From contig NZ_CP087203.1 of assembly GCF_026016325.1 (NCBI RefSeq), positions 3,968,001 through 4,032,000 of the forward strand: a stretch of DNA of 64,000 nucleotides. The letters are read 5' to 3'. The DNA is from Pseudomonas sp. B21-056. Its GTDB lineage: Bacteria > Pseudomonadota > Gammaproteobacteria > Pseudomonadales > Pseudomonadaceae. Of the stretch, positions 4,496 through 63,338 are shown one piece after another (positions within the stretch are counted from its first letter, which is position 1; every line of letters begins with the position of its first letter). Both the position numbers and the translations under genes were made by a program. The notes beneath the pieces were generated by a model. It saw only the letters and a list, made by a program, of their open reading frames with translations. It had not been told where the DNA came from and ran no database searches.

Positions 4496-6433
4496 TCACG
4501 CCCGCGCAGCACGCCACGCCTCGATCAATTCCACAAACGTGCCCTGCACCTGCCGGATCAGCGTTTCATCATCGATTTCCCCCGCCAGCCAGGCCCGGCT
4601 CGGCTCCTGGAAAATCGTGCGTCCCACGGCAAACCCGCGACAAGTCGTGCTCTGGCTGGCCTGGCGAAACCCTTCGGCCAGCGTGGAGGCCGGGGCGTTG
4701 AGGCCCAGCAACACCACGCCCCGGCAGTACGGGTCACGCTGCTGGATCAACTCGTCGAGTTGCTTCCATTCCTCCGCCGTCTGGGCTTCGATCTTCCACC
4801 ACGCTGGATAGATCCCCAGGTTGTAGAGGCGCTTGAGCGCGCGGTACAGCACGTCCGGGTGCGGCGATGGATGATCCTTCGGTGGAATGACCTCCAGCAG
4901 CAATTCATGGCCGCTGACCTGGGAGGCCTTGTAGAGCCCCATCAGTTGCGCCTCCTGCTCCAGGCGCAGCAGCGGTTCGTCATCGGGGTGGAATTGCACC
5001 AGGCACTTGATGATTTGCTCGCTGGGCCAGGCGATCAGGCTGCTGCCTATGGAACGCCCGTGTTCGAACGCCAGCGGCCGCGAGCCTTGCACTTCCACCG
5101 GCCGTGCGACCCACCAGCCGCGCCCGGTGGCGGCGTTCAACGAGTCCTGGCCGAAACGCTGATCGGCCAGCAAGCCGACATCGGCCTCGATGCCCTGGCG
5201 CCGCAGGTCAGCTTCGACCCGTTCCACCGCCTGGACGAACAGTTGCTTGAGTGCACCGATGCAACTCAGGTCCCGAGCGCCCTTTTGCGCCAGTTCCACC
5301 AGTTGCCAACGATGATCAAAGGCAAATATGAACAGTTGTTTCCAGGCCTTGCGTGGCACGCTGACCTGATGCAGCCGTTGCAGCACGAGGTCCTGGTCCG
5401 GGCGGGTGATCGGCACCGGGCTGTCGAACAGATAGTCGAGCTCAACCCGGGTCGGCATCGCCGGCGCACAGCCGTGACGCGACACCACCAGGCCACCGCA
5501 GGCGTTGGCCAACTGGCAGCAGCGCTCATCACTGGCGTCCTCCAGCCAGCCGGCGAGGAAGCCCGACATGAAGGCATCGCCGGCGCCCAGTACATTCAGG
5601 ACTTCAACGCGGACACCCGGATAAATGGCACCGTCCTCAAGTCGGGCCGGAATGGCGCCGTGAATCACCGTGCAACCCTGCGGGCCGAGCTTGACCACCA
5701 GGGTGGCCGCGGTCAGCGAGCGGACAGTGCGCAGCGCCGTCAGCAGATCTTCGCTGCCGCCGGCAATCAGGAACTCTTCTTCGGTGCCGACGATCAGGTC
5801 GAAACGCGGCAGGATGCCCTGCACATGCTGGCTGGTTTTCTGGTCGGCAACGAAACGGGTTTCCCCATCGGCCTTGCCCGTCAGCCCCCAGAGCACCGGC
5901 CGATAGTCGATGTCCAGTATGCGTTTGACGTTGTGCTTAGCGGCATGGTCCAGCGCCTGGAGGCTGGCCTGGTAGACGCCTTCGGTGGAGAAATGAGTGC
6001 CGGTGATCAGCAAGGCCTTGCTCGACGCAATGAAAGCCTCGTCAATGTCTTCGGCGCGCAACGCCATGTCGGCGCAGTTTTCCCGGTAGAACACCAGGGG
6101 AAAGGTTTCCCGATCCTTGATACCCAGCAAGACCAGGGCAGTCAGACGCTCAGGATCAACCTTGATGCCGCTGACATCGCAGCCTTCGCGTGCCAGGGAT
6201 TCCACCAGGAAACGGCCCATGTGGTCATCCCCTACCCGGCTCAACATCGCTGACCTGAGCCCAAGTCGCGCGGTGCCGAAGGCGATATTGGCAGACGAGC
6301 CGCCCAGGTATTTGGCGAAGCTCGACACATCTTCCAGCCGCGCCCCGACTTGCTGCGCATACAGGTCGACGCCCAGGCGCCCCAGGCAGATCACATCCAA
6401 TTGACGCCCACTGGCAAAACGAGTCTGGCCCAT
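4496..6433 (-). CDS. iolC: IolC, 5-dehydro-2-deoxygluconokinase fused to a DUF2090 aldolase-like domain
   Basis: The N-terminal half (about residues 10-335) is a PfkB/ribokinase-type kinase that phosphorylates 2-deoxy-5-keto-gluconate. It has the GGSSANIAFG substrate-side motif near residue 44 and GAGDAFMSG (283-291) with catalytic base Asp286. The C-terminal half (about 345-645) is a DUF2090 domain resembling the aldolase that splits the phosphorylated product into DHAP and malonate semialdehyde. At 645 residues it is the fused proteobacterial form, not the roughly 325-residue Bacillus kinase. It is the first gene of the minus-strand iol run, and its promoter lies in the 309-base gap shared with iolR. 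Confidence 0.95.
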   Translation of the reverse strand: MGQTRFASGRQLDVICLGRLGVDLYAQQVGARLEDVSSFAKYLGGSSANIAFGTARLGLRSAMLSRVGDDHMGRFLVESLAREGCDVSGIKVDPERLTALVLLGIKDRETFPLVFYRENCADMALRAEDIDEAFIASSKALLITGTHFSTEGVYQASLQALDHAAKHNVKRILDIDYRPVLWGLTGKADGETRFVADQKTSQHVQGILPRFDLIVGTEEEFLIAGGSEDLLTALRTVRSLTAATLVVKLGPQGCTVIHGAIPARLEDGAIYPGVRVEVLNVLGAGDAFMSGFLAGWLEDASDERCCQLANACGGLVVSRHGCAPAMPTRVELDYLFDSPVPITRPDQDLVLQRLHQVSVPRKAWKQLFIFAFDHRWQLVELAQKGARDLSCIGALKQLFVQAVERVEADLRRQGIEADVGLLADQRFGQDSLNAATGRGWWVARPVEVQGSRPLAFEHGRSIGSSLIAWPSEQIIKCLVQFHPDDEPLLRLEQEAQLMGLYKASQVSGHELLLEVIPPKDHPSPHPDVLYRALKRLYNLGIYPAWWKIEAQTAEEWKQLDELIQQRDPYCRGVVLLGLNAPASTLAEGFRQASQSTTCRGFAVGRTIFQEPSRAWLAGEIDDETLIRQVQGTFVELIEAWRAARA

Positions 6434-6742
6434 GCTGGCTCCTGTTATTTTTATCAGCCTGCGTTCGCTGCCGGACCGGCGCCAACGCTCTTGGTGGGCT
6501 CAGACTAAAACGAGCGAGGACCAATAATCAATAATTATTCTATAAATTTTTTATGTGGAATATTTTTTCCAATAGACTGCAAATCAACCGTGTCAGACGC
6601 AGTGCGTCGTTTCAGTCATGGATTGCGACGTTACCCGTCATGATTTTCCCTGCGCCTACGCGGTAGACTGCAAGCAGCCAACTTATTGTCGAGGGCCGGC
6701 CTTTACCGGACGGCCTATAAGAACAAGCCAGAAGGATTATCT
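6434..6742. promoter_or_regulatory. iolC/iolR divergent intergenic region
   Basis: The only clearly AT-rich stretch in this part of the window (about 6525-6575), so it probably holds both the minus-strand iol promoter and the iolR promoter. It contains the candidate IolR dyad at 6556-6571. Confidence 0.7.
6556..6571. promoter_or_regulatory. Candidate IolR operator TGGAA-N6-TTCCA
   Basis: A perfect dyad with a TATTTT spacer. A GGAA-N6-TTCC motif has been reported for RpiR-type IolR regulators of rhizobia. It lies 122 bases upstream of iolC and 171 upstream of iolR, where a repressor controlling both would be expected. Sequence match only. Confidence 0.65.
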
Positions 6743-7663
6743 ATGACCCGCCCCGATCTGCCGGCGCCATCCGAGCGCGCGTCCGAGGCCGCCCTCGCCA
6801 GCCCCCCGATCAATGCCGAGCGTCTGTTGCAACTGATCACCGATGAATATGAAAGCCTGCCGCGCCAGCTCAAACGCATTGCCAGCTACATGAGCCAGCA
6901 AAGCGACCGGATCATGGTGGATCGCATCAGCGACATCGCCCGCGAATGCGAAGTGCATCCGTCGGCCATCGTGCGTTTCTCGCAACGGTTCGGGTTCAGC
7001 GGGTTCAGCGAAATGCAGGCGTTGTTCCGCGAGGCCTACACCCACAAGACCACGCCGGTGCAGAACTACCAGCAACGCATCCGCAGCATGATCGCCAACA
7101 AGTCGCAGAAGGCCAGCGGCGGTGACCTGGCCCGTGAATGCATCAATGCCACGCTGTCGGGCATCGAGCGGCTTGGGCTGGAACTGGACGACCAGGCGTT
7201 CGACAAAGCGGTCGACCTGGTGGTCAACGCCGACAACATCTATGTGGTGGGCGTGCGGCGCTCCTTCGCGGTGGCCGATTACCTGGTCTATAACCTGCAG
7301 CACACCAACAAGCGCATTCACCTGGTTTCCGGGCTGGGCGGCAGTTATCGCGAGCAGATGCGCAGCGTACGGGCCAACGACCTGGTGATCGCCATCAGCT
7401 TCACGCCCTACGGCAAGGAAACCCAGCACTGCCTGCGCATCGCCCAGCATCACCAGGCCAAGACGCTGATCATCACCGACAGCAACCTGTCGCCCCTGGC
7501 GAAACGGGCCAACACCGTGCTGCTGGTGAACGAAGGCAGCTCCTTCGCCTTCCGCTCGCTGAGCGCCACCCTATGTCTGTGCCAGGCACTGTTCATCGCC
7601 GTGGCTTATCGGCTGGAACTCAAGGTCGATGAGATCCATGAACAGGTGGGGTTCGAGGATTGA
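6743..7663 (+). CDS. iolR: IolR, RpiR-family transcriptional regulator of inositol catabolism
   Basis: A 306-residue regulator. An N-terminal RpiR-type helix-turn-helix (about residues 25-100; ECEVHPSAIVRFSQRFGF is the recognition region) is followed by a SIS sugar-phosphate-binding domain (about 145-280; NIYVVGVRRSFAVADY). The ATG at 6743 has AGAAGGA seven bases upstream; the frame is open 19 codons further but with no better site. Divergent from iolC across the shared operator region. In relatives such regulators repress iol genes and respond to a phosphorylated inositol intermediate; that role is inferred here. Confidence 0.9.
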   Translation: MTRPDLPAPSERASEAALASPPINAERLLQLITDEYESLPRQLKRIASYMSQQSDRIMVDRISDIARECEVHPSAIVRFSQRFGFSGFSEMQALFREAYTHKTTPVQNYQQRIRSMIANKSQKASGGDLARECINATLSGIERLGLELDDQAFDKAVDLVVNADNIYVVGVRRSFAVADYLVYNLQHTNKRIHLVSGLGGSYREQMRSVRANDLVIAISFTPYGKETQHCLRIAQHHQAKTLIITDSNLSPLAKRANTVLLVNEGSSFAFRSLSATLCLCQALFIAVAYRLELKVDEIHEQVGFED

Positions 7664-16767: not shown

Positions 16768-18246
16768 CTACACAGCAGATTTAGCGACGGATGGGCTCGC
16801 ACGCAAACCGCACAACCCGTAATAAATCACCCCACCCAGCACCGAGCCGGTGAACCAGCCGTAGCTGTAGAACCAGTTGAACGCATCGCTGCCCAGGGAC
16901 AGCAGCGTCAAGGCCACCGGCACGCCGAAGGCGATGAAACCGTTCCAGTTCCACGCCGGGTAGACGTCGTCGCGGTACAACCCGGCCAGGTCCAGTTGTT
17001 GTTTCTTGATCAGGAAGTAATCCACCACCATGATCCCGGCAATCGGCCCGAGCAGGCTTGAATAGCCCAGCAGCCAGTTGGAATACACCGATTCAAGGCT
17101 GACGTCGGAGACGATCCAGCCGAGCTTTTTCAGCAGCTCATGGGCCATCAGCGCCAGCCCCACCAGCCCGGTCAACATCACCGCCTTGGAGCGACCGATC
17201 AGCTTGGGCGCCAGGTTCTGGAAGTCATTGGTGGGCGAGACGATGTTGGCGGCGGTGTTGGTCGAGAGCGTGGCGACGATGATCAGCACCATGGCCAGCG
17301 CCACCCACAACGGGCTCTGGATGTGCCCGATCAAGGTCACCGGGTCGGAGACGGTCACGCCCACCAGTTTTTCCGAGGCAGCCGTCATGACCACGCCGAG
17401 GGAGGCGAACAGGAACATGGTCAACGGCAACCCGATGATCTGCCCCACGACCTGGTCCTTCTGGCTCCTGGCATAACGGCTGAAGTCTGGAATGTTCAAC
17501 GACAGGGTTGCCCAGAAACCGACCATGGCCGTCAGCCCGGCAAGGAAGTAGCCGGTCACGCCGGCCCCCTCGGGCCGTTTGGCCGGGACCGCCATCAGCT
17601 CGGTCAGGGAGACGTTGGGCAAGGCCCACACCAGCAGACCGGCCCCCACCAGCACCAGCAGCGGCGCGGACAGGGTTTCCAGCCATTTGATCGATTCGGC
17701 GCCGCGCAGCACCACCCAGAGGTTCATGACCCAGAACATCATGAAGCCGAGTACCTCGCCCGTGCCCCCCAGGCTCTTCCAGCCTTCGAACACCGAACCG
17801 AGAAACAGGTGGATCGCCAGCCCGCCGAACATCGTCTGGATGCCGAACCAGCCGCACGCCACCAGGGCGCGGATCAGGCATGGAACGTTGGAACCGATGA
17901 CCCCGAAGGACGAGCGCAACAGCACCGGAAACGGAATGCCGTACTTGGTCCCGGCAAAGGCATTCAGGGTCAGGGGAATCAACACGATAATGTTGGCAAA
18001 CAGAATCGCCAGCAGCGCCTCGCCCACCGTCAGGCCGAAATAGGCGGTGAGCACGCCACCAAGGGTATAGGTCGGCACACAAATCGCCATGCCGACCCAC
18101 AGGGCAGTGATGTGCCACTTGTTCCAGGTTCGCTCGTGCACCTTCGTCGGTGCGATGTCGTGGTTGTAACGAGGGCTCTCGAGCACGTCGCTGCCGGCTT
18201 CAAGCTCAAACAACCCGTCGCGCTCGGTCACAGTTGATCTGGTCAT
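16768..18246 (-). CDS. NCS1 family nucleobase:cation symporter
   Basis: A 492-residue inner-membrane permease with about twelve hydrophobic helices, NCS1 family (uracil, hydantoin, allantoin and cytosine transporters). Typical regions are YTLGGVLTAYFGLTVGEAL near the first helices and FGVIGSNVPCLIRALVACGW. Its place beside dihydropyrimidinase and carbamoylase suggests pyrimidine or hydantoin uptake. The frame opens 11 codons earlier, but MTRSTVTERDG at 18246 has GTGGAG upstream. It is transcribed away from hydA, with pydC downstream. Confidence 0.88.
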   Translation of the reverse strand: MTRSTVTERDGLFELEAGSDVLESPRYNHDIAPTKVHERTWNKWHITALWVGMAICVPTYTLGGVLTAYFGLTVGEALLAILFANIIVLIPLTLNAFAGTKYGIPFPVLLRSSFGVIGSNVPCLIRALVACGWFGIQTMFGGLAIHLFLGSVFEGWKSLGGTGEVLGFMMFWVMNLWVVLRGAESIKWLETLSAPLLVLVGAGLLVWALPNVSLTELMAVPAKRPEGAGVTGYFLAGLTAMVGFWATLSLNIPDFSRYARSQKDQVVGQIIGLPLTMFLFASLGVVMTAASEKLVGVTVSDPVTLIGHIQSPLWVALAMVLIIVATLSTNTAANIVSPTNDFQNLAPKLIGRSKAVMLTGLVGLALMAHELLKKLGWIVSDVSLESVYSNWLLGYSSLLGPIAGIMVVDYFLIKKQQLDLAGLYRDDVYPAWNWNGFIAFGVPVALTLLSLGSDAFNWFYSYGWFTGSVLGGVIYYGLCGLRASPSVAKSAV

Positions 18247-20066
<1,820 letters not shown>

Positions 20067-55718: not shown

Positions 55719-56180
55719 ATGAATGCTGTCATCAACCAATTGAGTTTTGCCAAAGGCAATTATGTCACTGCGTCAGCTTTCTCAAACCATGGCAAGGAGT
55801 TCCCTGAGTTTGCTGCCACTTCGCGACTGATTGAAAAGAAAAAAGCGGGAGTCAAACAAACAGAAACCGTAGTGATTACGGCAGTTGATCGGGAGGAAAA
55901 ACAGACAAGGGCATCGATTACATCCAAGCGTGAACTCATTATCAGCATTCCGGCCGATTATGAACCCGGCAGCTATGAGCTGAAAACACGCGATGATGTT
56001 AGTTTCAGCCTCAGAGAATCCGACCAGACTATCTATGAAGGTATTTCAGGGACAATTGATCTGGTACCGGCTCCGGAGGGAAATATCAAAGGCAAATTCA
56101 ATGTCGATCTCGAGCTGCCGGATACCGATGGAGAAACCTTCATCCTGAAGGGCCAGTTCCAAGTGCTCAAGGCCAGGTAA
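55719..56180 (+). CDS. Hypothetical protein, 153 aa
   Basis: Not recognised. A 153-residue, soluble, charged protein with no signal peptide or membrane helix: a lysine-rich middle (LIEKKKAGVKQTE) and a run of short beta-like strands in the C-terminal half (ELIISIPADYEPGSYELK, FNVDLELPD). Its base composition is clearly more AT-rich than the efflux operon before it. The start ATG at 55719 has GGAGA. It stands alone, converging on the autotransporter with a terminator between. A secreted or lipid-binding role cannot be told. Confidence 0.7.
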   Translation: MNAVINQLSFAKGNYVTASAFSNHGKEFPEFAATSRLIEKKKAGVKQTETVVITAVDREEKQTRASITSKRELIISIPADYEPGSYELKTRDDVSFSLRESDQTIYEGISGTIDLVPAPEGNIKGKFNVDLELPDTDGETFILKGQFQVLKAR

Positions 56181-56199
56181 TCCGCTCTGGCGATATAAA

Positions 56200-56221
56200 A
56201 AGGGAAGCCAAAGCTTCCCTT
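56200..56221 (-). terminator. Intrinsic terminator of the autotransporter gene
   Basis: AAGGGAAGC-TTTG-GCTTCCCTT followed by TTT on the minus strand (stem of nine), eight bases after the autotransporter stop. It may also stop the plus-strand gene that converges here. Confidence 0.85.
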
Positions 56222-56228
56222 CTATTAT

Positions 56229-58688
56229 TCAGAACGTGTAATGCGCACCGAAATTGAAACCGAAGTCCTTGGTCAGATTGTCACCTTTGCTGGTGTCCAG
56301 TTCAGCATGGACCTGCCAACGATCACTCAATGTCCAGGAGGCACCCGCGGCCACTTCGAAGCGGGTACCGGAAAGGTCGTTGTTGAACTTGTTATTGTTG
56401 ACTTGAACTTCGTTGTGCTTGGCAAATTCCTGAACCACCGCCGTGCGAATATGCGGTTGCAGTACACTGCCGTCGTCCAGGGTCATGCCTCGCCCCACTG
56501 TCACGCCCACCTTGCCAAGCATGGAACGCGTTGTGTCGGCGTCAGCCTTCAACCCATTGTCCAGGTTGAAATCCTTCCCCTGTACCGTCGCTACTTGCCA
56601 TTGCGTGAACGGCTCCACGTAGTAGCCATCTTTGATGTCGATGTGCTTGCCAAACTCAACGGACGCACTGGCCCCCAGGTTGTTATAGCCACCCTTGGTC
56701 TTGGCTCCATCACTCATCGTCACTTTGGCATCGTTGCGGAAGTGGTTGAGCTTGGCGACGGTATCCAGATAGTAACCGCTGTCACCCAGCCAGGTGCCGT
56801 ACATACCGATAGACGTGCTGTCGATCTCCCCTGAACTGCCACGACTCAAGTCAAGGTTCGACTTGCTGTAGCCGGCGAATGCCCCCAGCAGTACCCGCTC
56901 ACCCGCGATTTCGACCGGGGTATCGACGCCCATGGAAATGCCGTGCTGGTTCTGGCTGTAGCCGTTGCCGTAAGCCTTGTTGGTGATGCTGTATCGGCTG
57001 CCGAAGGAGCGAATCCATCCACCTGTTTGCCCGCCGTTGACACGAAGATCGCCCATTCGGTTGTTCAACAACGCCATCTCTCCGTAAATGACAGTAGGTG
57101 CAGTACCGAAGATGGCGAGGACCGAACGGGTCGGTGTGCTGATGACATCCTTATCGGGTTGCAGGTACCAATCATCGCCGTTCTTCACCAGGCGATAGGT
57201 ATACGCCCCGACGTCCACCCGATCATTGACGAGGTCGTATTGGGCGCCGGAAGCGACACTCTGGACCACCTTGATCGACGCATCGTTGACCGGATCGAGC
57301 CCCGAGCTGGCGACCAACAGTTGATGATTGCCGGTTGCGCTGCCGGTGATATTCAGAAGGTCGCTGATGCCCTGATTGAAATCGGTACCGATCTCGAACC
57401 GGCCACTACCCGACAGGTTGGCCACGTCCAACTGGAAGTATTCCTGATTACCCCCCAATCGAACCGTACCGCCGCTGTTGAGCGTGAGATTGCTCACCGA
57501 CTGGCTGTCGGTCATCTGCCACAGAGCCTGGTTGCTGATGGCGAAATTGGAGACGTTGCTCACCTTTCCGGTCAGGCTGGCACCGTTGTCCAATGTCAGG
57601 CTGGAAACACTGTTGGCAGCGCCTGTCACATCACCGACCATCACGCTCTGGTTGTTGATCGATACGCTGGCAACATCCTGCAGGTTACCCGTGAGCGTGG
57701 ACGCGTTGTTGATCACCACACTGGCGGCGCCCAGCACATTGCCGGTCATACGCGCCTGATTGTTGAGTGTCGCATTGGTGACGTTCTGCATGTCACCGGT
57801 CAACGAGGCCGCATTCTGCAGGGTGACGTTGCCGGAACCGCCAGCATCCACCACGATATTGCCCGTCAGTTGACTGTTGTCGACCAGCAAACCGGCCGTA
57901 GCACCGTTGCGAACCTCAAGCAAGTTACCGTTACCGCCAACCAGGCTGGAACCGTTACGCACTTCAATGTTGGCCACGGTCGGAAAATTCGGCGCGTTGA
58001 TGCCCACGACAATGGCCGAACCGGTGACGCCCTCCACCCTCGTCCCATCCAGCACGATGGAGGTAGGAATGACCGTTGTCGGGCCCGTATCGGTGCCCAC
58101 GGTTATCCCGTTCAGGCCACCTTTGATCGTGCTGCCGCTGGCCGTCAGCGTACTTTCCAGCATACGGATGCCAAAACTGTTGGCGCCCGTGCCCTCAACA
58201 GTGGAGTTCTGGAGGCTCAGCTCACTGAAGCGGTTGCCGGCGATCCCACCCAACAGCCCTCGCACGGTACTGTTGTTACTCAACGTCACCCTGGAGCCGC
58301 CAGCACTGTTGATGTCACGTACGGCAGATATGCCGATGCCCGTGGTACTGGTCACCGTGGAGTTGGCCAGGGTGGCACTGGCATTCGTGAGGAAAATTCC
58401 TTGGCTGATTCCGCCTCCTCCGGCGGAGTTCACCGTCGAGTTGGTCAGGTTGACCACGCCGCCGTTGGTGCTGGCGATGCCGAGCGTCGTGGCGCCCGTG
58501 CCAATCAGTGTCGCTCCGGGTCCAACGCTCCATGTTTCCACTGGGGTATTGGCGTCAATGGTTTCGCTTTGCCCACCGGGAACGACGCCGGCCTGAGCCG
58601 ATAATGGGTTTGTCAGCAACGGTATGCACAACATGACCGACAGACTGAGTGAGGTTCTACGAAAGAGAAATACGGATCTAGACAACAT
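56229..58688 (-). CDS. Type Va autotransporter, beta-helical passenger and outer-membrane barrel
   Basis: An 819-residue autotransporter. Signal peptide at residues 1-33 (LSLSVMLCIPLLTNPLSAQA). Passenger (about 34-500): beta-helix built of imperfect about 20-residue rungs ending in Asn- and Ser-rich turns, such as NNASTLTGNLQDVASVSINN and neighbours. Linker, then C-terminal barrel (about 540-819) ending in the aromatic strand FGFNFGAHYTF with terminal Phe, as expected for BAM recognition. No serine-protease motif and no RGD; probably adhesin or pertactin-like. Divergent from nothing; AT-richer than the genome average here. Confidence 0.9.
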   Translation of the reverse strand: MLSRSVFLFRRTSLSLSVMLCIPLLTNPLSAQAGVVPGGQSETIDANTPVETWSVGPGATLIGTGATTLGIASTNGGVVNLTNSTVNSAGGGGISQGIFLTNASATLANSTVTSTTGIGISAVRDINSAGGSRVTLSNNSTVRGLLGGIAGNRFSELSLQNSTVEGTGANSFGIRMLESTLTASGSTIKGGLNGITVGTDTGPTTVIPTSIVLDGTRVEGVTGSAIVVGINAPNFPTVANIEVRNGSSLVGGNGNLLEVRNGATAGLLVDNSQLTGNIVVDAGGSGNVTLQNAASLTGDMQNVTNATLNNQARMTGNVLGAASVVINNASTLTGNLQDVASVSINNQSVMVGDVTGAANSVSSLTLDNGASLTGKVSNVSNFAISNQALWQMTDSQSVSNLTLNSGGTVRLGGNQEYFQLDVANLSGSGRFEIGTDFNQGISDLLNITGSATGNHQLLVASSGLDPVNDASIKVVQSVASGAQYDLVNDRVDVGAYTYRLVKNGDDWYLQPDKDVISTPTRSVLAIFGTAPTVIYGEMALLNNRMGDLRVNGGQTGGWIRSFGSRYSITNKAYGNGYSQNQHGISMGVDTPVEIAGERVLLGAFAGYSKSNLDLSRGSSGEIDSTSIGMYGTWLGDSGYYLDTVAKLNHFRNDAKVTMSDGAKTKGGYNNLGASASVEFGKHIDIKDGYYVEPFTQWQVATVQGKDFNLDNGLKADADTTRSMLGKVGVTVGRGMTLDDGSVLQPHIRTAVVQEFAKHNEVQVNNNKFNNDLSGTRFEVAAGASWTLSDRWQVHAELDTSKGDNLTKDFGFNFGAHYTF

Positions 58689-58935
58689 AAGTGAGTCCTG
58701 CTCAATGACATTCCGTTAGGAACAAGTCTCCGACTCACAGATATGTCAGAGCCGGAATAAAAAGCGGCCGCCAGACTACGGTTTACCCATCCAGCCTTAT
58801 GTAGGACATATCCGTAAATACGTAGGACTTTTCCTGTTTCGTCGTGAGAGTTCTACAACTGAATGTATGAAAGGCTATTTCAATAGTTAAGGACGACTCA
58901 TACCATCGCCCTTAACTAGTCCATCTGAAGATAAG
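58689..58935. promoter_or_regulatory. Autotransporter upstream region
   Basis: AT-rich 247-base gap. It contains two GTAGGAC copies 21 bases apart (58801-58807 and 58822-58828), about two helical turns, and further on the TAGTTAAGG/CCTTAACTA stem (58884-58918) after the 707-residue gene. Confidence 0.5.
58884..58918 (-). terminator. Stem-loop after the 707-residue gene
   Basis: TAGTTAAGG pairs with CCTTAACTA across 17 bases, 18 bases beyond the stop of the gene ending at 58936. AT-rich and without T tract, so a weak terminator at best. Confidence 0.4.
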
Positions 58936-61059
58936 TTACGGTGTCTCAGGACGTTCCTCGTCGCAATAAACCAGGCTGGAGTTCAGTAGCTGTACCCCAA
59001 CGATAACTTCCGATTCGATACCATTGACCGTATAGGCAATACGCGCGTATCGAACAGCCGGCCGTTGCGTACCGTTTTTTGGCAATTGGATTTCACGGAT
59101 TTTTGCGTAATCCGTCAGCCTGAACTCCAGATCCCCCGTCGCAGGCATCGGCGCCGAAGCAGTGATGAGTGTGTTGGGGATCACAACGCCGCCAGGTGTA
59201 TTGGTCACTCGCCCCTCGAATTCCAGATCGACCGTGGCACCGGTGGGGATATTGGCATCACGCCGGATCCGGATGCGCAGGTTGCGTGGCGCATAGGGGG
59301 GCATGGGGCCATCAGCCACCTGCGGATGATTGAGGCTAGGGCAGTTGATGAGGTTGGCGATCCGTTCCGGTACCAGCGCTCCTGTGCTGCTTCTGAACGC
59401 CGAGATCACAATTTGCGGTGCAGGCAAGTCGATCACGATGGCCGTCACATCGACCTTGGTCGTGACCTGCTGTTTCATCAGGTTACCGCCCGGGTATTCG
59501 ATGGTGATATAGGCCTCCCTGGCGTCCCCCCCTGCTGTAGAGCCGTTCCCCTCCGCCAGGATCGTTGCCCATGGCAGCTCGGTACGGACGGTCGTGTCGC
59601 CCACCCGCACCGGTACCGGCGCCCCCACCTGTTTGCCCTGATAGTAGAATTTGACGATTTCACGTCCGGTCACGGGTCGACTGGCGTCGATCCACACCGG
59701 CCAGTTCATGGTCGCCGCCAGCCCTGCCTGGTCCGGTCCCAAAATGTTTGGAGCAGGTTGCGGAGTACCTGCACCCTGTACCACCACGGGATCAATATTG
59801 GGGTTCTCTGGATCGGGCAGATTAGGCTGCTCAGGTCCGGCGTAGGAGAAGTCGATGACAGCGAACTCGCGGCTCGAAACCGGATTGGGTGAAAGGGTGG
59901 AGCGCTCCAGTTCATACCAGTATTCCAACTCTGTCTCATCCTCCTTGTTGGCATCTCCAAACAACGTTGCCAACGTTGAATAGTCCAATTCGAACCTCAA
60001 GGGTCCAGGGGTGCCGACAGGCGGAACAGTGTCTTCAGGTAAGCCTATTGGTCCGTCTTCTATTGAATAGAGGTAGGGAATGATGCGGTCACCCGGAAGT
60101 GCATTGTCTGGAATATCGATTTCCATAATGACCCGCGTGTCGGGAGGCTCCGTCACCATCGAGAAGTTGATAGGTAATTGACCTCCATTGGTCACCGGGA
60201 TCTTTGGAGGATGGAGTATCGGTGCCGGCGTCCTGACCCGTTGGAACAGCAACGTGATGTTAGAGTTATTGCTGATATTCCCGGGCAGGTCAGTGAGATT
60301 GTAAGAGTAATAATAGGTCCCTTCGTTGAGCGCCTGCAGAAAAGCCAACGGAATATTGATAATACCCGTGGCTGGCACCGGACCTGTAAAAGCGGGGGGT
60401 TCTCCTTGCATCAAGGAAAAAGTCGTCTGAGTTGAAATATAGAAATTGACCTTGTCGTTATCCGCTTCGAACTTTTGATAGGCGTGGGGAATAGTCAGGC
60501 TCAATCCTCCGGCATTGGCCGGATCGCTCAGCCAGGCGTCGTCAACAATGGCAGGGACCGTGGCGCCCAGGGTCAATAGCGTTGGTCTCGTGCCCGTGCC
60601 ATTGCCCGTGCCTGGCTGACGCTGGTAGGGTGCGGTCAAATCAACCAGGACGGGGGTGTAAGTCGAGGTATCAATGTTCCCAGGAAGATCGTAGACAACA
60701 AAAGCAAAATTATAGGCGTTGTACTCACCAGCCGAGTCATATACATCTTCCAGATTCAAGGCATTGGTGTCCAAATCGAACTCTACCGGAAATACCCAAT
60801 CACCTGTGGGCTGATCAGCCTTGAGCTTTGTATCGACCACATACGAGGGATCGCCTGGGACAATATCAACACCTTCTGGAAACACATGGAGTTCTACTAA
60901 GATGCCGCTTTCGGGCCCTTGGTCAACGATGCCCGTCAACCGCACCTTGATACTCCGGTCTTCCTTGAGCTGTTTATAAGTGAGCCGGTCATCCGGTAAT
61001 ATATCGACAATTACCGGCTCTTCAGCAAACACACCACCCGACCTTACCTGCATATTCAT
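58936..61059 (-). CDS. Hypothetical beta-rich protein with Ig-like modules, 707 aa
   Basis: Not recognised as a named family. 707 residues, no signal peptide and no membrane helix. It appears to be built of tandem beta-sandwich modules: recurring YN(F/L) plus DLPGNI turns (VVYDLPGNIDTS near residue 125, NLTDLPGNISNN near 255), many short DxT/TxP turns, and proline-rich linkers (PNLPDPENPNIDP). This suggests repeated Ig- or cadherin-like domains of a surface or tail-fibre-like protein. The start MNMQVRSGG has GGAGT at proper distance. It follows a similar-looking 278-residue gene by 141 bases. Confidence 0.65.
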   Translation of the reverse strand: MNMQVRSGGVFAEEPVIVDILPDDRLTYKQLKEDRSIKVRLTGIVDQGPESGILVELHVFPEGVDIVPGDPSYVVDTKLKADQPTGDWVFPVEFDLDTNALNLEDVYDSAGEYNAYNFAFVVYDLPGNIDTSTYTPVLVDLTAPYQRQPGTGNGTGTRPTLLTLGATVPAIVDDAWLSDPANAGGLSLTIPHAYQKFEADNDKVNFYISTQTTFSLMQGEPPAFTGPVPATGIINIPLAFLQALNEGTYYYSYNLTDLPGNISNNSNITLLFQRVRTPAPILHPPKIPVTNGGQLPINFSMVTEPPDTRVIMEIDIPDNALPGDRIIPYLYSIEDGPIGLPEDTVPPVGTPGPLRFELDYSTLATLFGDANKEDETELEYWYELERSTLSPNPVSSREFAVIDFSYAGPEQPNLPDPENPNIDPVVVQGAGTPQPAPNILGPDQAGLAATMNWPVWIDASRPVTGREIVKFYYQGKQVGAPVPVRVGDTTVRTELPWATILAEGNGSTAGGDAREAYITIEYPGGNLMKQQVTTKVDVTAIVIDLPAPQIVISAFRSSTGALVPERIANLINCPSLNHPQVADGPMPPYAPRNLRIRIRRDANIPTGATVDLEFEGRVTNTPGGVVIPNTLITASAPMPATGDLEFRLTDYAKIREIQLPKNGTQRPAVRYARIAYTVNGIESEVIVGVQLLNSSLVYCDEERPETP

Positions 61060-61200
61060 TTTGATGACTCCACCGATGAGTTAATCATTGAACAATCAAC
61101 GTCATGACCCGATGAAGGACCGCACGATGGCAGGTCACAGGCGCCTGGCATTGATGTCTTGCAACTTTCGCCACTCAATAACGTAATCCGCCTCAGCGGA

Positions 61201-62037
61201 CTACCCCCCTGACACACCACTTGGACCACAAGGAACGGTTTGACCCGGAATAATTCGATCAATCTTTACCAGGCCCAGAGCGGACTTCCCTAATCCGACT
61301 CCATTTCGATAGAGCGTGTAAGTGGCCGTGGCCGACGCATTCCGTTCCATCGGTTTTATATGTTGTTCATATTTATCGCTCTCCAATACAAAATCGAACC
61401 CTTGCCCAGACGAAGCTTCTTCTTGCGTTAATAACTTGGTCAGTCGCAGCGACGTATCCGCGATCGGCGCTGTACCATTCAGGCTGTTGAATCCTTCCCA
61501 ATCCAGTGCGCAGTTGTCGCCCATCTCGAACCGCCCCGGTTGTGCAGGCACATGCACCACTACGCGCTCCCACAACTTTGGCTGGCTATCGCAGTTGAGA
61601 TAGCCCCATAACGTGGCACTCGGAAACGTCGGCGCCTCAAGGTTCTCCGGTGGCGCGCGATTGACAGTGAAACTTTGAGGGATCGATGTGTCCGGGTTGC
61701 CGGTATCTCCGGCAGTGACCCGATACTTCAAGCGAATGATTCCATCACGCTGAAGGTATTGCGGCGGCAAAGTAATGACGGGGGGAGTCTGTACGGGCAC
61801 AGGAAAATAAGTGCTGTAGAAAAGCACTTCCTCCTGATCGCCTGGCTGGAGCACCCAGATTTCCAACAGATCGCTATTGCCGGGTTGAGTCGAAGGGTCC
61901 ACCCACAGGGGAATCAACAGTTTGGCCCCCACTACGGCGGCCTCGGGCGGGAGCATGCCACTTGTGCCGACGCCTTCGACCGTCAAAGGCACTGCCAGAA
62001 CACCGCTACTCCTACTGTTTTTATCTGACCAGGCCAT
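61201..62037 (-). CDS. Hypothetical beta-rich protein, 278 aa
   Basis: Not recognised. 278 residues, no signal peptide. Composition and motif texture resemble the 707-residue neighbour: VDPSTQPGNSDLLEIWVLQPG near residue 45, beta-strand-like YLQRDGIIRLKYRV, and a proline-rich NRAPPENLEAPTFP hinge near residue 127. MAWSDKNSRSSG at 62037 is chosen over an in-frame TTG nine codons up because it has TGGAGA. The pair probably works together, perhaps as surface components; function unknown. Confidence 0.65.
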   Translation of the reverse strand: MAWSDKNSRSSGVLAVPLTVEGVGTSGMLPPEAAVVGAKLLIPLWVDPSTQPGNSDLLEIWVLQPGDQEEVLFYSTYFPVPVQTPPVITLPPQYLQRDGIIRLKYRVTAGDTGNPDTSIPQSFTVNRAPPENLEAPTFPSATLWGYLNCDSQPKLWERVVVHVPAQPGRFEMGDNCALDWEGFNSLNGTAPIADTSLRLTKLLTQEEASSGQGFDFVLESDKYEQHIKPMERNASATATYTLYRNGVGLGKSALGLVKIDRIIPGQTVPCGPSGVSGG

Positions 62038-62106
62038 GCTCCATTCTCCAGACCGAACCTTCAAAGGGCCTGGAGGAATTAGACGTGGATATCCCGGATG
62101 CGCCTA

Positions 62107-62122
62107 CTGTCAGATCTGACAG
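62107..62122. promoter_or_regulatory. Perfect 16-bp palindrome CTGTCAGATCTGACAG
   Basis: Lies between the aruH stop and the 278-residue gene, 70 bases before its start. It has the CTGT-N8-ACAG outline of a LexA box, though the centre is less AT-rich than usual. An operator of the two beta-rich genes is the leading idea. Confidence 0.45.
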
Positions 62123-62147
62123 GTCTTAGGCCCGTTCGTCGGGGCAA

Positions 62148-63338
62148 TCACTCTTGCGACAACTGTTCCAGTGAGTCCGCTGCGCACCGGGTAATCCGAC
62201 GACAGGCTTCTTCGAGTTGCGATTGCCCAAGCACTAAACCGATCCGAATATGCCCCGCCGCACTCGGCCCGAACGCCTCACCCGCCAGCACCGACACGCC
62301 ATACCCATCCAGCAGCCGCTCGGCAAACGCCTGGGCAGCGAGCCCCGTCCGGCGCACGTCCACCATCACGAACATGCCACCGTCAGGCCGAATGGGCGTG
62401 AGCCCCGGGCAGTCATCGAGCATGGCGCACACCAAATCCCGACGCTGGCGATACTCGTCACGCATGTACGTCACTTCAGGCAGCTCCTCCTCCAGCGCAA
62501 CCTGGGCCGCCCGCTGCACAAAGTCCGGCAGGCCGAACAGCATGCACAACGACAGGTTCGCCAGGTGTTCGGCCAGCGGCTCGGGGCCGATGACCCAGCC
62601 GATGCGCCAACCGGTCATGGCGTGGGATTTGGACAGACTGTTGATGGTCGCGGTGCGTTCGGCCATGCCCGGAAGGCCGGCCGGGCTGATGTGCTCGCCT
62701 TCGTACAGCAGGTCGCTGTAGACCTCGTCACTGATCAGCCACAGGTCATACTCCACGCACAGTTGCGCCAGCGCCTGCCAGGTGGGCAATGGCAGGCTGG
62801 CCCCGGAGGGGTTGTTGGGGCTGTTGAGCAGCAGGGCCCGGGTGTGCGGGGTGATCAGGCGGGCCACGTCGGCCGGCTCGACCCGAAACGCATTTTCCGG
62901 GCGTACCGGTACCGGCTGCACTTTCGCCCCGCAGGCGCCGAACACGGCTTCGTAGGTGACGTACATGGGCTCGGCAACGATGACTTCGTCGCCGGGGTTG
63001 AGCAGGCATTGCGCAACCGCGTACACCGCGCACTGTGCGCCCGGCAGTACCGTGACGTGTCCTGCCCCGACCGACTGGCCGCAACGCCGACGATGGCGGC
63101 CCGCGATGCTGGCGCGCAAACCGTGGATGCCGCGAACGTCGGAATAATGGGTATCCCCGGCCCGCAGACTGTCCACGGCGGCGTCGACGATGGCCCGCGG
63201 CGTGTCGAAATCCGGATCGCCCACCGACAGCAACAATACGTCCATGCCCTGCTCACGCATGGCCAGTGCCCGGTCGTGGATCTGCCATGCGGCGGCACCT
63301 TCACCGGTGATGCGTTGGGTCAAGGCTGAATAGCGCAT
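62148..63338 (-). CDS. aruH: AruH-like arginine:pyruvate transaminase
   Basis: A 396-residue class I/II PLP aminotransferase. PLP Lys is in SLSKSHAMTGWR; LLNSPNNPSG and SDEVYSDL are the substrate/PLP-site segments; ARG-type C-terminal SAAGHIRIGLVLG is present. Overall it resembles P. aeruginosa AruH, first enzyme of the arginine transaminase route, which yields 2-ketoarginine. The usual partner aruI and regulators aruRS are not in the window. A general aromatic/aliphatic aminotransferase is the alternative. Confidence 0.85.
   Translation of the reverse strand: MRYSALTQRITGEGAAAWQIHDRALAMREQGMDVLLLSVGDPDFDTPRAIVDAAVDSLRAGDTHYSDVRGIHGLRASIAGRHRRRCGQSVGAGHVTVLPGAQCAVYAVAQCLLNPGDEVIVAEPMYVTYEAVFGACGAKVQPVPVRPENAFRVEPADVARLITPHTRALLLNSPNNPSGASLPLPTWQALAQLCVEYDLWLISDEVYSDLLYEGEHISPAGLPGMAERTATINSLSKSHAMTGWRIGWVIGPEPLAEHLANLSLCMLFGLPDFVQRAAQVALEEELPEVTYMRDEYRQRRDLVCAMLDDCPGLTPIRPDGGMFVMVDVRRTGLAAQAFAERLLDGYGVSVLAGEAFGPSAAGHIRIGLVLGQSQLEEACRRITRCAADSLEQLSQE

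Follow-up and report, generated by a model that had tools for sequence, protein, structure and literature searches.

Inverse autotransporters (type Ve: intimin, invasin, YeeJ) carry an N-terminal barrel and a string of immunoglobulin (Ig)-like domains in the same chain. The gene cassette described here also links Ig-like strings to an outer-membrane barrel, but this barrel is C-terminal and lies in another protein, no obvious signal peptide precedes the Ig strings, and no single protein joins an N-terminal barrel to an Ig passenger. Two-partner secretion (type Vb) offers another likeness, an outer-membrane barrel side by side with a separate large β protein. The autotransporter (AT) of the cassette, however, has its own passenger and a PF03797 barrel, the two β-rich proteins encoded beside it (A and B) lack an obvious Sec signal, and no match to a POTRA/FhaC-type transporter was found among the four proteins of the block. 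Type Va autotransporters with a pertactin-like passenger resemble the AT itself, which has a signal peptide (judged by eye), a pertactin-type passenger end, and the PF03797 barrel. The difference lies in its pairing with separate, signal-less multidomain proteins; to our knowledge, a conserved partnership with proteins of this kind is not part of the type Va class. The large multidomain adhesins or matrix proteins SiiE and RbmA are, together with a clostridial fibronectin type III (Fn3) pair, among the structural matches of the Ig/Fn3 strings. As to the families Big_3_5, Big_6, and Big_13, giant Ig-like proteins stand beside some cassettes, and of three scanned, those at loci L071 and L102 exceed the Big_3_5/Big_6 cut-offs and that at L073 does not. 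B reaches 16.2 bits for Big_13 (cut-off 27), and neither A nor P0002, a relative in which A and B are fused, has a Big match over a cut-off. The cassette is widespread in Pseudomonas and apparently undescribed: no account of such a cassette was recognized in the open-access literature searched.

The window, a stretch of 64,000 nucleotides from Pseudomonas sp. B21-056, belongs to a genome that is a single contig of 6.45 Mb. All four open reading frames of the block were confirmed as first described (Table 1). On the minus strand, A (278 aa) is followed by a 141-base spacer, B (707 aa), 247 bases, and the AT (819 aa); an alternative start at a TTG (62064) would lengthen A to 287 aa. When compared with the related loci L031 and L034, the genes for A, B, the AT, and the 153-aa protein all differ most at third codon positions, as expected for maintained proteins. 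The hairpin between the convergent genes is only a candidate terminator, because sites of this type are no commoner than in shuffled sequence (four found against 6.3 expected). The block also differs from its flanks in composition, in agreement with the original prediction: between 55 and 62 kb, all seven 1-kb bins have a GC content of 0.52–0.58, whereas only six of the remaining 57 bins fall below 0.60. The lowest of these lie at 6001–7000 (0.575) and 18001–19000 (0.554, the minimum).

Table 1. Coordinates of the cassette features in the window and of giant Ig-like proteins at other loci
Feature	Coordinates	Strand	Description
153-aa protein	55719-56180	+	Open reading frame, convergent with the AT gene; all-β barrel in the model; no signal peptide by eye
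Hairpin, candidate shared terminator	56200..56221	no strand	Between the convergent 153-aa and AT genes
Type Va autotransporter (AT), 819 aa	56229-58688	-	Signal peptide by eye, pertactin-type passenger end, barrel, terminal F
B protein, 707 aa	58936-61059	-	Corresponds to five β-sandwich domains of the fused relative's model; no signal peptide by eye
Spacer A-B	61060..61200	-	Matches the disordered linker of fused relatives; frame open, not that of A or B
A protein, 278 aa	61201-62037	-	Corresponds to two β-sandwich domains of the fused relative's model; no signal peptide by eye
Giant Ig-like proteins	L062:184-4182, L071:16543-19608, L073:4526-8506, L102:13268-17764, L059:1-5242		

By its domains, the 819-aa protein is an ordinary type Va autotransporter, as had been proposed. 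A PF03797 barrel (1.8e-51) occupies residues 558–797 and the last residue is F; residues 400–510 match Pertactin (9.9e-21), TIGR01414 is matched as well, and the hydrophobic start, read by eye as a signal peptide, is in the same chain as the passenger. A search of the window genome with the AT gave four matches: the protein itself, a single one elsewhere, and a pair in a third region. Neither of the other two regions has β-rich genes. The barrel also matches phrog_21473, a virus-derived family, at 5e-67, which suggests that such a barrel exists in some phage or prophage record. This is the best PHROGs match of the AT, its function is unassigned in PHROGs, and the AT alone among the four proteins has any; a phage origin of the block was rejected on this basis. 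A defense system was likewise rejected, none of the four proteins having a PADLOC match. Known structures, searched by sequence, gave no match at E ≤ 0.1, and no enzymatic or toxin domain was matched in the four proteins with Pfam, NCBIfam, PADLOC, or PHROGs.

A and B had been called unrecognized, and no described family was found for them over the Pfam or NCBIfam cut-offs, nor any PHROGs or PADLOC match at E ≤ 0.01. A Pfam scan of ten proteins left P0002 and seven others below every cut-off. The model of P0002, built from a 62-row alignment (pLDDT 84, pTM 0.42), contains by our reading of its strands two β-sandwich domains, a low-confidence stretch at 272–305, and five more domains, so that A and B both appear as tandem β-sandwich (Fn3/Ig) proteins. 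Structurally, this model matches a variety of Fn3/Ig arrays, most of them eukaryotic; matches to a predicted structure of this sort show fold, not function.

A and B have in common a C-terminal domain of about 135 residues, detected in 33 of the 34 A proteins compared, with E values as low as 2e-29; the second domain of the window A and the C-terminal domain of the family's B-like proteins are homologous. Among 188 β-rich proteins, the domain occurs in 33/36 of those of 230–310 aa, 95/99 of 560–780 aa, and 15/17 of 860–1030 aa, and it lies no more than 45 residues from the C terminus in 33, 94, and 11 of them, respectively. The corresponding counts are 10/25 (8 within 45 residues) for proteins of 340–560 aa and 3/11 (0) for those above 1030 aa. 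No AT has the domain. In the window B, it includes cysteines 573 and 699. Both cysteines are present in 91 of 92 B-like proteins, selected by profile score and a length of 600–780 aa (some upstream A-type proteins are included), and never one alone; the proteins are otherwise cysteine-poor. The 34 A proteins show two cysteine columns, each 94% filled. In the fused model, both cysteines of the pair lie in or beside low-confidence stretches. Such strict pairing at a median identity of ∼22% suggests a disulfide and hence an oxidizing compartment. The putative disulfide would sit oddly with the missing signal peptide: by eye, neither the 707- nor the 278-aa protein has a signal-peptide-like start, as originally noted. 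A signal-peptide heuristic was positive for 26/188 β-rich proteins, most of them with ordinary domain starts when inspected by eye, and for 71/86 ATs, which contain 0–4 cysteines each.

In the window, A and B are separate proteins, as had been stated, but the same description does not hold across the family, in which one chain is often found. Many of 80 B relatives are 1001–1043 aa long and align across the whole of B; at the fused loci L002–L004 the N-terminal part matches A, and by eye that of P0002–P0004 resembles A. A tree of 77 B regions including the window's (the partial P0046, P0053, and P0068 were dropped and P0080 was left out) contains 38 fused and 39 split rows, although some of the latter are metagenome sequences that may hide sequencing errors. 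The state changes 13 times on the tree, and at least 11 of these changes are forced by well-supported branches. The nearest relative, P0001, is split too, and the next nearest ones are fused. In the window, the spacer retains linker-like residues of the relatives in a reading frame that neither A nor B uses. The break between A and B thus coincides with a linker that is probably flexible, as would fit repeated splitting or joining in which the parts are kept. In Pseudomonas sp. MDT1-17, pieces of 487 and 543 aa (P0068 and P0083) result from a break inside B and not in the A–B linker.

The AT lies near β-rich genes at 104 of 106 loci in total, all of which were picked for a B-like match, a few genomes giving two loci. 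In the main set of 91 (L031–L121), the AT is present near the B-like gene at 90, when fragmented ATs (e.g., L064, L081, and L118) are scored as present. It lies on the same strand 55–319 bp downstream at 78 loci, 2.3–2.6 kb downstream at 8, and is otherwise placed at 3; at L120 it was found by tblastn. Of 15 further loci, 14 have an AT. At L078 and L220, tblastn found no AT in the stretch read beside the β-rich genes. Loci centered on the AT gave a consistent picture. In 20 of these, hand-picked so that genomes with no listed B match were represented, the 14 closest ATs (E < 1e-120, a limit chosen after the result was seen) all have β-rich neighbors and the 6 weaker ones have none. A chance neighborhood was rejected on the two sets of counts. 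Judged from these gene orders, the AT is encoded next to, and mostly directly downstream of, one or two predicted β-sandwich strings.

The arrangement varies: A is ∼270, ∼430–470, or ∼650 aa long, A and B can be fused, divergent copies occur, and extra ∼500-aa proteins are found behind the AT. Family members of ∼480–520 aa lie beyond the AT at L121:4081-5634, L115:12916-14454, and L187:8535-10088, those at L121 and L115 without the shared C-terminal domain. Giant Ig-like proteins of 1000–1750 aa stand at either end of some cassettes (Table 1). Tandem pairs of ATs that are less like the window's, at L172 and L173, have no β-rich neighbors.

Used alone as a query, B matched 51 of 298 Pseudomonas genomes, and relatives more than 60% identical to it were found in four of these besides the window's own. 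With a 17-row profile, the B-like family was detected in at least 195 of the 298, leaving 103 without a match. The same kind of search reached at least 23 of 248 genomes, in 2 of 19 genera, at the level of the family; at that of the class, the 368 other genomes gave no match, and the sole match among 369 was the window's own. These profile counts are lower bounds, owing to a loose first look, and each species is represented by one genome. All relatives of B, A, and the 153-aa protein that bear a name are from Pseudomonas. In the samples searched, the cassette is restricted by these matches to Pseudomonas and one near genus. Uniform presence among relatives, which had been named as a finding that would speak against the original prediction, is thus not what was observed.

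The flanking genes are taken to be aruH, ptxS, kgu, and an RND pump, names that in part follow that prediction. The site of the window, recognized by at least one of its neighbor genes (RND pump; ptxS-kgu or aruH) within the stretch, holds 60 of the 91 loci; a different conserved gene pair adjoins 8, another two sites account for 5, and 18 are unassigned. With so many loci at one site and the family in so many genomes, the reading of the block as an ad hoc accessory region is not supported. In many relatives a kgu/ptxS sugar-acid operon separates the cassette from aruH; it is missing at 61201–63338 of the window and likewise at L035, L039, and L040. At L091, the cassette is on the opposite side of the pump.

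At 58 site loci including the window, median identity is 83%–92% for the flanks, 34.5% for A, 22.4% for B, 41% for the passenger, and 46% for the barrel, the comparison having been made first as identity × coverage of a single local alignment and then repeated with multiple alignments. Identities of the flank genes correlate with one another (rho 0.77–0.91), as do those of the module parts (0.37–0.66). A does not follow the flanks (rho 0.01, −0.01, and 0.07), and passenger and barrel follow them weakly (0.00–0.31). B correlates with the pump (0.48) and ptxS (0.57) but not with aruH (−0.06); its identity partly tracks the flanks, and its divergence is thus not all by exchange. In 116 pairs with pumps at least 96% identical, which are not independent, B is below 40% identity in 86 and at 60% or more in 10. 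The window cassette itself is nearer to those of L032 and L033 (pump 90%–91%, aruH 78%–79%, B 67%–68%) than to those of L035, L039, and L040, where pump and aruH are 97%–98% and 89%–92% identical but B only 27%–31%. L055 and L057 have pumps that are 94% identical and nearly the same cassette (B 98.6%, passenger 99.4%), which likely reflects a recent transfer. By eye, A of L218 starts like that of L034 and B like that of P0019, a hint that A and B can also reassort. As far as these alignments go, the cassette genes stay together across the genus and diverge far more than their flanks, largely (for B, partly) independently of flank relatedness, and it seems that species exchange versions of the cassette at a set position in the chromosome.

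Horizontal movement, one part of the proposal that the block was acquired, is therefore likely from the decoupling of module and flanks, partial as it is for B. Composition, on which that proposal drew, fails as a sign: GC is lower in the cassette than in the flanks at 86 of 90 loci across the genus, a general property that gives no indication of recent arrival and for which recent acquisition as judged from composition was rejected. A search for the empty site in 20 genomes with no B match listed yielded seven aruH regions, none of which shows the cassette. No precise empty site was found among them; the kgu-aruH order is kept only in L211 and L217, both without the pump in the stretch.

The 153-aa protein had been described as an orphan. 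It has 29 relatives besides itself at E ≤ 0.001, which rules this out. Within the close subfamily (L031–L034 and L218), its gene has the same place, beyond the AT gene and convergent with it, and faint matches occur at the equivalent position in L037 and L038. The model is an all-β barrel (pLDDT 80.8) whose best structural matches are weak and mixed; a calycin/lipocalin-type fold was considered. The protein may be a subfamily-specific accessory.

We give about even chances to the reading that the block represents an allele of a polymorphic, allele-swapped Pseudomonas surface cassette, in which an AT and Ig-like strings serve in adhesion or recognition. A and B would be exported independently of the standard Sec signal, become disulfide-bonded outside the cytoplasm, and join the AT passenger at the cell surface in an adhesive or recognition structure, with the shared C-terminal domain as the best candidate for a docking or sorting part. 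Diversifying pressure from phages, partners, host surfaces, or competitors would favor the swapping of entire alleles, with recombination taking place via the conserved flanks. A surface location of the putative A/B assembly is suggested by the cysteine pair, the fold, and the gene neighborhood. Evidence to the contrary comes from the absence of an export signal and of any dedicated exporter recognized in an unsystematic reading of the loci; moreover, surface proteins are not alone in having Ig/Fn3-like folds or low GC. The original prediction is partly supported: a surface or adhesion system is the most likely kind of function, and we infer the surface placement of A and B as well as that function. 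A type V-linked assembly of a new kind, in which a cysteine-paired C-terminal sorting and docking tag for a dedicated AT would bring multi-Ig proteins that lack a Sec signal to the surface, at a genus-wide, allele-exchanged identity or adhesion locus analogous to a serotype or kin-recognition locus, seems unlikely, though not negligibly so.

The doubt about export is met directly if A and B never leave the cell and act as intracellular partners, for example as chaperones of the AT precursor or as factors in its assembly, with the AT alone outside. The scarcity of signal peptides in the β-rich proteins relative to the ATs, and the lack of a recognized exporter gene nearby, are as this would require. 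A cysteine pair co-conserved in cysteine-poor proteins is less easily accommodated, as is a predicted domain string resembling extracellular Fn3/Ig arrays, and a chaperone would not be expected to diverge more than its AT, as B does; we regard an intracellular role as improbable. A and B could instead be cargo of a type VI or type I system or of lysis, hitting competitors or building matrix, with the AT as receptor or protector. Proteins without a signal would suit such routes, and fast divergence with allele exchange, as found here, is usual for antagonism loci. The lack of any matched toxin or enzymatic domain in the four proteins argues against this idea, to which we assign a low probability; nor did an immunity-like gene shared by the loci come to notice in the unsystematic reading. 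For type VI in particular, at least five family-bearing genomes (G043, G045, G087, G151, and G192, drafts of 99%–100% completeness) have no match to TssB (PF05591); type VI does not look required, and dependence of the cassette on it was rejected on these drafts.

Two further explanations deny the block a joint or intact function. A gene for one chain may have been broken in two as the cassette decays in this strain, which would explain why the spacer keeps linker-like coding residues in another frame and why the closest fused relative, P0002, is still 77% identical. The two-gene form is nevertheless common and occurs in the nearest relative, both halves are open with third-position-biased differences, the split falls in a predicted disordered linker, and among 40 loci A and B are mostly encoded apart; decay is very unlikely. 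It is more doubtful still that the AT and A/B share only a location, through a mobile island or common descent, as low GC and the use of several chromosomal sites might suggest. The AT lies nearby at almost all loci across those several sites, with changes of orientation and extra genes, ATs less like the window's have no β-rich neighbors, and the identities of A, B, and the AT correlate with each other, those of A without correlation to the flanks.

If the reading as an exchangeable surface cassette is correct, a heavily studied genus of soil and plant bacteria would possess a hypervariable surface system that is easily overlooked, because its proteins have no domain names or obvious signal peptides. 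It would raise the question of how signal-less, cysteine-paired Ig-like strings reach the adjacent AT, and it would provide a fixed-site marker for the diversity of Pseudomonas surface types in relation to phage receptors, aggregation, and colonization.
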